NCBI GenBank assembly: GCA_003164675.1
Contig: PLTX01000060.1
Coordinates: 1-64,000, forward strand
Origin: Verrucomicrobiota bacterium
Lineage (GTDB): Bacteria; Verrucomicrobiota; Verrucomicrobiia; Palsa-1439
Length of the DNA stretch: 64,000 bases
Reading direction: 5' to 3'
The position numbers were made by a program, and so were the translations under genes. The notes under the pieces are model-generated. The model made no database searches and was not told the DNA's origin. It was given only the letters and a program-made list of their open reading frames with translations. Below are positions 40,997 to 49,711 of the stretch, piece by piece. How positions within the stretch are numbered: the first letter of the stretch is position 1; every line of letters begins with the position of its first letter.

Positions 40997-41193
40997 CGTT
41001 TTTACGAATCGCGTGTATCTTAACTCATTGTTGCTGTGGGCGATCCAAATACGACCTCCTCCAACAAAATTGGGTTTGTTTAACAGATTTAACATTTCGG
41101 AGCTTACCCCTCCTTCACACTGAGCTCGTCAAAGCGAGCGCAGTCGAATGGTAGCCACCGCACGTGCCGACCTTTGGCCCGGCGATTATCCCG

Positions 41194-41218
41194 GTTTACA
41201 CCGACTCCGAGGTCGGGG
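41194..41218. repeat. GTTTAC/CCGACT palindrome element, intergenic copy
   Basis: GTTTACACCGACT then CCGAGGTCGGGG. It matches 23 of 25 positions with 43728-43752, which lies inside the CCA-adding enzyme gene. The core folds as CCGAC / GTCGG with a loop of about six bases. Flanking bases are also similar (GGGTGCCGTCCGCC here, GGCCGCGAGCGCC there). Confidence 0.7.
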
Positions 41219-41626: not shown

Positions 41627-42841
41627 ATGAAATGGTCGCTTCCAATCGGACGGGTATCCGGCATCAGCCTGCGCCTGCATGTGACGTTCCTGATGTTTCT
41701 TGCCTTTATCGCCTACGCGGGCTTCATGGATGTAGGGCTCAGCGGCGCCGGCTGGGCGGTAGCGATGTTCTGCTCGGTGTTTGCCTGCATCGCGCTCCAC
41801 GAGCTTGGGCATAGTGTTGTGGCCCAACAACTTGGCGTGCAGGTCAGAAGCATTACACTCCTGCCGATCGGTGGCGTGGCGGCACTGCGTAACTTCCCGG
41901 AAAACCCCTGGCACGAGATTGCCATCACCGTGGCGGGGCCAATGGTCAATGCCGCCATCGCGTGCGTGTTGATCCCATTCACGGGCACGCCGTCACATTG
42001 GCTGATCGTGGCCATGCCCCAGGATGTTCATGGGTTGTTGTTGAGTCTCACCCAGGCAAATATCACGCTCTTCGTATTTAACTTTATTCCCGCGTTTCCG
42101 ATGGACGGCGGGCGGCTGCTGCGCGCGGTGTTGGCGCTCGCGCTCCCGTACCGACAAGCCACGACGATTGCTGCCATGGTGGGGCAGGGATTGGCCATCC
42201 TGTTCGTTGTCGCCGGATTGAAATTCTCCTTCTGGCTCGTCCTGATCGGGGTGTTCATTTTCCTGGGCGCCGAAGGGGAGGAACGCTTCGTGCGGATGCG
42301 AAGTGTGTTGCGTAACCTGAATGTGGAAGATGTGATGAGTCGGGAGGTCGCAATGCTTTCGCCCTCGGACCCGGTGTCGCGCGGCATCGAGTTGATCTAT
42401 CAAACAGGACAGGACGATTTTCCCGTGCTCGAACAGGGAAGGCTCGTGGGCATTGTGGCGCGGTCCGGACTCATCGAGGCAATGAATGCGCACGGAGCCA
42501 ATACACCGGTGATGGCGATCATGAATGCCAATGTAACACTGGCGTCGCCGTGGGAAAAGTTGATGTCCGCGTGTGAAGAGATCATCAGTGGCACAACCAC
42601 GAACGCGGTGGTGGTCGTGGACGACGGGCGGCTTGTCGGCATGGTCTCACCCGAGAACATCAATCGGTACCTGTCCGTGCAATCGAATATCAAGTCGCCG
42701 CGGCGTCGCCGGGCGACCGGGGTGCCGCCGTCACTCGTGACTTCGCAAACTCCAGCGCCTCCGCCCGTGATTTCAGGCGTTCCTCCAATTGTAGCTCCTC
42801 AATCTCCCGCAGAATCTGTCCCACCATCGGGCCTGGCGTAA
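41627..42841 (+). CDS. Site-2 protease-like M50 metalloprotease with CBS pair
   Basis: A 404-residue integral membrane protease. The zinc site is HELGH (about residue 60) and FPMDGGR (about 160), between hydrophobic helices, as in SpoIVFB/S2P relatives. A pair of CBS domains follows (about 230-350: VEDVMSREVAMLSPSDPV and VMAIMNANVTLASPW), which may sense adenine nucleotides. The last 50 residues are Pro/Ser/Ala rich and lie exactly in the 152-base overlap with the oppositely oriented CCA-adding enzyme gene. That tail is probably a recent read-through extension, not a domain. Start 41627 has AGGGAT upstream. Confidence 0.88.
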   Translation: MKWSLPIGRVSGISLRLHVTFLMFLAFIAYAGFMDVGLSGAGWAVAMFCSVFACIALHELGHSVVAQQLGVQVRSITLLPIGGVAALRNFPENPWHEIAITVAGPMVNAAIACVLIPFTGTPSHWLIVAMPQDVHGLLLSLTQANITLFVFNFIPAFPMDGGRLLRAVLALALPYRQATTIAAMVGQGLAILFVVAGLKFSFWLVLIGVFIFLGAEGEERFVRMRSVLRNLNVEDVMSREVAMLSPSDPVSRGIELIYQTGQDDFPVLEQGRLVGIVARSGLIEAMNAHGANTPVMAIMNANVTLASPWEKLMSACEEIISGTTTNAVVVVDDGRLVGMVSPENINRYLSVQSNIKSPRRRRATGVPPSLVTSQTPAPPPVISGVPPIVAPQSPAESVPPSGLA

Positions 42842-44138
42842 GCCCCAAGGCCAGCAAATCGTGGCCGTTCAAGAGTGGCTCGGGCTTTACCACTTCCGGT
42901 GGCAACTCTGCGGCCTTGGCCTTGAGGAATTCGTAATTCTCCATGTTCCGGTGACTGGAGGCACAATCGATCCGGTGAAGTTCGAGTTCTTCGGGAAATG
43001 TGTCGCGGGCAAGGATGCGCTTGAGTTTGGCGGGCCGCATTTCCTTGACGAATTGAAATCGCATGTGCTCGCGGACGCAGAGCACAATCTTGTCGATCTC
43101 CTCATTGGGGAAGCGGAGGCGACGGAGAACTGCTTCCGCCATTTCCGCGCCGATGCGATCATGGTCGTTGAACCGGATCCGGTCCGGCGCGCGCACGAAT
43201 GTGGGCGGCTTGCCAACGTCGTGCAACAGCACCGCAAACGCCAACACCGTCCTGTCCTTTGGAGGGCCGAGCTCCTGCGAGGCCGCATCCGACATCATCT
43301 CCAGCATCAATCTCGTATGTTGGAACACATCACCCTCGGGATGAAATTCGGGTGGTTGCTCGACGCCCTTCATCGCGGCAATTTCGGGTAAAATCTCCGC
43401 CAACAACCCGCTCGCATCGAGCAGTTCCAGGCCGCGACCCGCATGTGGTCGCGTGAGAATCTTGATCAGTTCGTCACGGATACGTTCGGCGCTGACAACG
43501 CTAATCTGGGATGCCATCTCTGTGACGGCAGCAAGCGTCGCGGGGTCAATGGCAAATTCCAGATTTGCCGCAAATCGAACGGCGCGCAGCATTCGCAGCT
43601 TGTCTTCGGTGAACCGTTGCCGCGGCTCGCCAATCGTCCGCACCACCTTCCGCTCAATGTCCGCCCGCCCGCCAACATAATCAATGATCCCCGGTAGGTC
43701 GCCAGTTGTCTGTGGTAGGGCGCGGGAGTTTACCCCGACTTCGAGGTCGGGGCCGCGAGCGCCGTTCTGTCTCTCCCCCGCCAATGGATCGTAAAATAAT
43801 CCATTGATCGTAAAATCCCGCCGTTGCGCATCCTCTTCCGCGGAACCATACCTCACCCCGGTCGGACGCCTTCCATCAACATACGCGTCATCACTGCGAA
43901 ACGTGGCGACCTCAAATTGGTGTTCGCCTTCGAGGACCAACACGACACCGAACGCCGCGCCGACAGGGACAGTCTTGGCGAATAGCGCTTGGACTTCCTC
44001 AGGCCGGGCGCTCGTGGCGATATCGAAGTCCTGCGGCTCGACGCCTCGCACCATGTCGCGCACGCATCCGCCGACAAAATACGCCACATGCCCCGCCTCG
44101 CGCAGGCGACGGACAATGTTCGTTGCGGTTTCCTTCAC
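42690..44138 (-). CDS. cca: CCA-adding enzyme / tRNA nucleotidyltransferase with HD domain and in-frame insertion
   Basis: A 482-residue class II nucleotidyltransferase. The head has YFVGGCVRDMVRG (about 20-32), the catalytic DFDIATSA (about 37-44), and RRDFTINGLFYDPL (about 106-120). The neck and body include EDKLRMLRAVRFAANL (about 177), and an HD-type domain follows (VFQHTRLML; LLHDVGKPP near 310). Between DPLAGE and IIDYVGGRAD about 28 extra residues (about 123-150, rich in Gly, Arg, Asp, Val, Asn) come from a palindromic repeat; in relatives these two motifs are nearly adjacent. The insertion sits in a surface loop after the catalytic strand. The 3' end overlaps the M50 gene by 152 bases. 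Confidence 0.88.
   Translation of the reverse strand: MKETATNIVRRLREAGHVAYFVGGCVRDMVRGVEPQDFDIATSARPEEVQALFAKTVPVGAAFGVVLVLEGEHQFEVATFRSDDAYVDGRRPTGVRYGSAEEDAQRRDFTINGLFYDPLAGERQNGARGPDLEVGVNSRALPQTTGDLPGIIDYVGGRADIERKVVRTIGEPRQRFTEDKLRMLRAVRFAANLEFAIDPATLAAVTEMASQISVVSAERIRDELIKILTRPHAGRGLELLDASGLLAEILPEIAAMKGVEQPPEFHPEGDVFQHTRLMLEMMSDAASQELGPPKDRTVLAFAVLLHDVGKPPTFVRAPDRIRFNDHDRIGAEMAEAVLRRLRFPNEEIDKIVLCVREHMRFQFVKEMRPAKLKRILARDTFPEELELHRIDCASSHRNMENYEFLKAKAAELPPEVVKPEPLLNGHDLLALGLTPGPMVGQILREIEELQLEERLKSRAEALEFAKSRVTAAPRSPGDAAAT
43689..43772. repeat. In-frame 84-base palindromic insertion in cca
   Basis: The bases coding for the additional 28 codons include GTTTACCCCGACT and CGAGGTCGGGG (43728-43752), which match the intergenic copy at 41194-41218 in 23 of 25 positions. 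The core forms a CCCCGAC / GTCGGGG hairpin. The length is an exact multiple of three and no stop codon is introduced in the gene frame. Confidence 0.75.
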
Positions 44139-44582
44139 GGCGTCCTAAGAGTAGCATAGCCGTCTCGCCGGTGTCTCTAGTGCTGCGACGCACTTGATTT
44201 GATGGGTGCGTCACGGCTGGAAAATGAACCCTCACCCTGACCCTCTCCCTTAAGAAGGGCGAGGGGACCGCGCTCCGTCTCCTCTCCCCTCCGGGGGCGA
44301 AGATCAAGATGAGAGGTGGTGGTCTGCTGGTCCCCTCTCCCCCTCCGGGCGGAGCCGAGTCCGACGAGACGCCGCCAGTCGTGCCGAGGCGGCAAAGGGT
44401 CAGGGTGAGGGGGGGGCAGCCCGTCAAATGAACTGTGGCCGTGCACTAGCGCGAGAAGCACAAACGAGCGGGAAACATATCTTGCCCCGTCACTCTCCAA
44501 CGTCGGTTATCACAATCGGGGAATTGCCTCCCCGCTTTGGACGCTTTGCGAACCTCGCGGTTTGTGCTTCCGAGGGTTCTCT
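44139..44582. other. Gene-less stretch with a terminal-inverted-repeat element
   Basis: About 440 bases. The main content is the G+C-rich element at 44228-44415. Further right, GAAGCACAAAC (near 44455) and GTTTGTGCTTC (near 44560) form an 11-base inverted repeat about 100 bases apart. No gene is supportable. Confidence 0.5.
44228..44415. repeat. About 190-base element with CCCTCACCCTGACCCT ends
   Basis: It begins CCCTCACCCTGACCCTCTCCC and ends in AGGGTCAGGGTGAGGG, the inverse. Between them are further purine/pyrimidine blocks (GGCGAGGGGA, CTCTCCCCTCCGGGGGCG, GATGAGAGG, CCCCTCTCCCCCTCCGGGCGG). A related short piece (CCCCTTGGGGGAGAGG ... GGTGAGGGG) is near 41490-41518. The layout is that of a short non-autonomous inverted-repeat element. 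Confidence 0.65.
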
Positions 44583-49631: not shown

Positions 49632-49645
49632 GAAAACGGGGATCA

Positions 49646-49665
49646 GCCCCGAATGCGTTCGGGGC
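49646..49665. repeat. Short palindrome, CCCGAA-N4-TTCGGG family, copy 3
   Basis: GCCCCGAATGCGTTCGGGGC is near-perfect over 20 bases, followed by CAGCG. It lies between rpsU and the epimerase gene, 15 bases before the latter's start, so it is in the 5' leader of that gene on the minus strand. Confidence 0.65.
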
Positions 49666-49711
49666 CAGCGCCGCAACGCGACCACTGGCCCCGTGATTGG
49701 TTCGTGCGTAT

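Follow-up and report, generated by a model that had tools for sequence, protein, structure and literature searches.

How did a CCA-adding enzyme gene of a Verrucomicrobiota bacterium come to carry 28 codons that its relatives lack, and what do they do to the enzyme? A first-pass annotation of the window (the whole 64,000-nucleotide stretch of DNA analysed) had read the insert as a single palindromic element that resembles the Rickettsia palindromic elements, in an unrelated lineage. Here, we find that the 84-bp insert is a composite, a GTAG-tagged REP (repetitive extragenic palindrome) with a second palindrome in mid-element (Table 1). The in-frame palindrome of the earlier reading is thus real, but it is the nested part of a larger insertion.

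Table 1. Coordinates of the insert, its component repeats and the host gene in the window
Feature	Position	Strand	Description
CCA-adding enzyme gene (tRNA nucleotidyltransferase / PolyA_pol family)	42690..44138	-	482 aa, GTG start, open ORF
In-frame insertion, 28 codons / 84 bp	43689..43772	-	Residues ~123-150, RQNGARGPDLEVGVNSRALPQTTGDLPG, in a head-domain hairpin turn
GTAG-tagged REP, interrupted	43714..43766	+	Left part GGTAGGGCGC (43714-43723), right part CCGCGAGCGCCGTT (43753-43766)
Inner palindromic repeat AGTTTACCCCGACTTCGAGGTCGGGG	43727..43752	+	TTTA tag and 8-bp stem; from copies, fold and information content
Intergenic copy of inner palindrome	41193..41218	+	3 mismatches in 26

The product of the gene contains the PolyA_pol head, PolyA_pol_RNAbd, HD and tRNA_NucTran2_2 domains of Pfam. 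By protein alignment the head motifs of CCA-adding enzymes, including the invariant RRDFTxN, are intact and the remainder is well conserved. The gene evolves under purifying selection (dN/dS ~0.06): comparison with the same-genus genes gave dN/dS values of 0.055 (G002) and 0.072 (G001), at a dS near saturation. Since its motifs are intact, the rest of the protein is conserved and dN/dS is low, the gene looks functional with its insert. Its nearest named relatives come mostly from verrucomicrobial metagenome-assembled genomes, and the source therefore probably belongs to the Verrucomicrobiota. We found no second CCA enzyme in the source genome, in which the sole other match, a weak one (C4) considered as a back-up enzyme, was rejected as what we take, from inspecting the sequence by eye, to be a GlnD-like uridylyltransferase. 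Upstream of the CCA gene, the intergenic stretch 44230-44420 is GC-rich and contains repeated CCCTCACCCTGACCCTCTCCC-like motifs.

The extra residues are placed by alignment between DPLAGE and IIDYVGG, and they indeed have no counterpart in 27 of 28 aligned relatives, including G001 and G002 of the same genus. In the 28th, G007, this position is occupied by a different insert; all others join DPxxxx directly to xxDxVGG. Among 57 relatives searched with HMMER, 56 matched the CCA enzyme, nearly all with an interruption at about residues 121/151, and G007 gave the one clearly continuous match. Spacing at the site is nearly constant across 80 further loci from named genomes, and a few distant enzymes (L205, L188, L145, L164 and L210) have unrelated longer loops there, which show only that the site tolerates a change in length; by eye, no REP was seen in the long loop of L205 (Phycisphaerales). 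A wider order-level search gained no genomes beyond the family. In the literature searched, no CCA-adding enzyme was described as carrying a palindromic element.

The CCCCGAC/GTCGGGG hairpin described in the first-pass annotation is present within the 28 codons, and the core shared with an intergenic site 2.5 kb away was confirmed, with 23 of 25 bases agreeing at 41194-41218. That site is the sole further copy of the core in the window, where shuffled sequence is expected to give 0. We counted repeat copies by pattern searches, taking as the source genome (G000) an assembly of 3.6 Mb in 125 contigs that is ~90% complete. At up to 3 mismatches the core pattern matched 27 times and its reversed control 0 times, as anticipated for a dispersed, multi-copy palindrome; L002 and L018 are the same palindrome on both strands, leaving 26 genomic places. 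When 24 of these were aligned, the conserved stretch started at the TTTA tag and ended with the final GGGG, and positions just outside were near background, so the dispersed unit is ~26 bp (25-26) long. The inner palindrome also occurs in many genomic contexts that lack a REP, and its dispersed copies suggest that it may be mobile. Two outcomes named in advance as counting against an insertion, the same residues in most relatives and no further copies, were both looked for, and neither was found. Three further reading frames that cross the inner palindrome (L019, L025, L026) were set aside as spurious. Elsewhere in the window, two copies (79% alike) of the palindrome AGCCCCGAAxGCxTTCGGGGC lie at 604-645 and 49644-49685, similar in type to one inside a REP of G005.

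On the plus strand the insert reads GGTAGGGCGC-GGG-[AGTTTACCCCGACTTCGAGGTCGGGG]-CCGCGAGCGCCGTT, with the inner palindrome bracketed between two halves of a repeat that is found intact elsewhere in the genome, at C34, as GGTAGGGCGCTCGCGCCGCGAGCGCC. Copies one change away from this intact form lie at C102, C112, C33 and C69. The left half of the CCA-gene REP is identical at C34, C102 and C112, and the right half is the same at C102 and C112 and differs by one end base at C34. The intact repeat folds as GGTAG-GGCGCTCGC-GCC-GCGAGCGCC, a short palindrome with an unpaired terminal GTAG at its start, a 3-nt loop and a 9-bp stem, within the 5-13 bp of GTAG-type elements. It is dispersed: a strict pattern matched 8 times in its own genome and up to 29 times in relatives, with 0-2 matches for reversed controls, and 9 of the 11 family genomes have the REP. 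A looser pattern gave 13 matches in the source genome, a count made uninformative by 8 control matches.

The inner palindrome makes the REP interval 24 bp longer (51 bp, against 27 bp in the intact REP), and the reading frame is therefore kept. What remains of the REP in the CCA gene is its GTAG, 5 bp at the outside of the left arm, and a complete right arm. At the position of the inner palindrome, part of the left arm has been replaced, so we infer, rather than observe, that one whole repeat entered another. Nesting occurred more than once, since in G005 a GTAG REP encloses another palindrome, which differs from the inner one but shares its TTTACCCCGA type. At both edges of the insert, ~30 of the 84 bp match neither repeat; they are possibly flanking DNA that was captured, or a second REP that has decayed.

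One of three Y1_Tnp proteins in the source genome, that at C34, is classed as a REP-associated tyrosine transposase (RAYT) by NCBIfam NF047646 (score 93.3 bits; cut-off 80) and has a His-Leu-His motif. The intact REP precedes its gene by ~45 bp, and an inverted GTAG palindrome follows the gene closely. REPs therefore flank the RAYT gene on both sides, the arrangement given for REPtrons in a published survey (PMC3733652). Judged from this arrangement, the RAYT most likely placed the REP of the CCA gene.

REPs also lie in frame in other genes of the source genome and its relatives. In a group 1 glycosyltransferase of the source genome (L213 391-1599) two in-frame REPs encode the peptide ARPAVAPYQ twice. 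Among its orthologues, that of G001 has REP peptides at both sites, that of G004 has related sequence at both, and those of G003 and G009 have none, a pattern suggesting that REP peptides are passed on by descent in addition to being acquired. This gene and its relatives (L219-L223) offer a ready series for following how REP peptides are gained and remodelled. In the mannose-6-phosphate isomerase of the source genome, a REP lies in a stretch ~23 residues longer than in structure 1qwr, and a Vsr-like endonuclease frame (L216 955-2442, at C33) contains an in-frame REP and a second long repeat. The long in-frame repeat peptide of L216 (SLTLTLSPRTAERGAKG...) splits two conserved Vsr-like halves, and this gene may be inactive. 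Three further frames, whose names we assign by recognition of the sequence, are presumably Dxr-like in G001, with an in-frame REP and a net gain of only 4-5 residues; TrpC-like in G003, with a REP that reads through in frame; and PabB/TrpE-like in G002, also with an in-frame REP. Just downstream of the REP-bearing TrpC-like gene, a RAYT-like frame with RQVTRPT repeat peptides on its flanks (L102 1190-3027, at C33 of G003) runs in frame into TrpF-like sequence.

To gain insight into the effect of the insert on the protein, we modelled the enzyme with AlphaFold2 from an alignment of 30 relatives (mean pLDDT 91.8). Insert residues 131-145 scored below 50, and the blocks on either side ~97. No helix or strand was predicted for residues 126-150, and the flanking strands (114-116 and 151-153) are confident. 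The model fits a disordered surface loop tolerated by an otherwise confidently predicted enzyme, in agreement with the earlier expectation that the insert loops out and leaves the enzyme undisturbed. Because the turn lies only about ten residues after the RRDFTIN motif, the argument for tolerance draws on the model together with selection on the gene, and by these two tolerance of the insert is supported. Within its mRNA context the insert folded no more stably than shuffles (z -0.10), and a role at the RNA level is therefore without support.

Taken together, the insert is very probably a GTAG REP that landed in frame, carrying a second palindrome, and is tolerated as a disordered loop. In the mechanism that we propose, the RAYT, an HUH single-strand transposase, would recognise the GTAG hairpin and place a REP in the CCA gene, in frame within the hairpin turn of the head domain. 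The smaller, TTTA-tagged palindrome of 26 bp would then have entered the middle of the REP, and translation of both repeats would yield the disordered 28-residue loop, probably a neutral addition. The repeats would persist because 5 of 6 reading frames of the REP are free of stops, because the net length is a multiple of three and because a change in length at the turn is tolerated and leaves the conserved motifs as they are.

These features place the insert closest to the GTAG-REP/RAYT system, a likeness by description to a class with 24 published families (PMC3733652). Shared with what that source describes are the GTAG end, the GC-rich stem and the short loop, and, as in REPtrons, single elements, tail-tail dimers, a RAYT flanked by REPs and in-frame copies in housekeeping genes. 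Unlike the GTAG REPs described there, the element here has its middle filled by a separate multi-copy palindrome. A parallel in the same text is GTAG-14 of Bradyrhizobium, in which the loop holds an extra inverted repeat of up to 27 bp; the inner palindrome here differs as a separate dispersed repeat with its many REP-free locations. The lineage, in turn, is no surprise, since intragenic GTAG REPs are already published and are most numerous in Opitutus terrae, a member of the Verrucomicrobia (Di Nocera et al. 2013, PMC3733652).

Did the insertion happen once or twice? G007, which belongs to another genus, carries the same REP in its insert, as a tail-tail dimer, and a single old insertion common to G000 and G007 and lost elsewhere would account for REP-derived sequence at one position in both. 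The edges next to IIDYVGG are also alike on direct comparison (GCGACCTACCGGGG and GCCAGCCACCGGGG, ~11/14). However, this history would need several exact losses, as G001 and G002 in the genus of G000 and G010 in that of G007 are all empty, and it would have to reconcile a single nested REP with a tail-tail dimer. On the branches that matter here, the gene tree gives no resolution. Two separate insertions appear simpler than one followed by several losses, because G001, G002 and G010 have no insert at all; a shared origin is doubtful but credible, and it concerns the history alone, being compatible with the landing of a GTAG REP proposed above. A precedent for repeated use of one site is given for recB, in another gene and lineage, where different REPs lie at about the same site in the related species Xanthomonas campestris and X. 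oryzae (PMC3733652). A bolder proposal would be that RAYT-driven REP landing recurs in the CCA hairpin, independently in at least two genera, and is enlarged by a second palindrome, so that REPs are a steady source of disordered loops in essential enzymes, possibly with a selected effect on the enzyme; we think this improbable.

We consider it very unlikely that the insert belongs to a family of the Rickettsia palindromic element type (RPE/CGTC), independent of a RAYT and arisen separately in this lineage. The outcome is alike, in that palindromic peptides occur in frame in housekeeping genes of R. conorii (PMC3733652), and this part of the original comparison holds: here too a palindrome lies in frame in a probably working coding gene, a property that intragenic REPs share. 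The likeness seen is one of outcome. The outer element is GTAG-tagged, and it adjoins a RAYT gene that has REPs on either side. The same source groups RPE-4 and RPE-6 with the CGTC repeats, which it describes as having no association with transposase genes (PMC3733652). The inner palindrome, taken alone, could be of another kind than RAYT/REP. Natural variation in hairpin length with a coincidental likeness to repeats, for which the longer loops of the distant enzymes might speak, can be dismissed and is refuted for the CCA gene by the repeat copies, since the gene holds the 26-bp repeat exactly, together with both REP halves; all of these are multi-copy, and chance would give essentially none.

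The CCA-gene insertion is clearly an event of a known type, with two uncommon features, the nesting of repeats and the repeated use of one landing site. In it, the conversion of selfish palindromic DNA into protein sequence can be traced cleanly, through empty sites in other genomes of the genus, a transposase as the probable mover of the repeat, a nested repeat and parallels in several other genes of one small bacterial family. Because the case is traceable and the enzyme assay simple, the question of whether REP peptides are neutral or put to use becomes directly testable.
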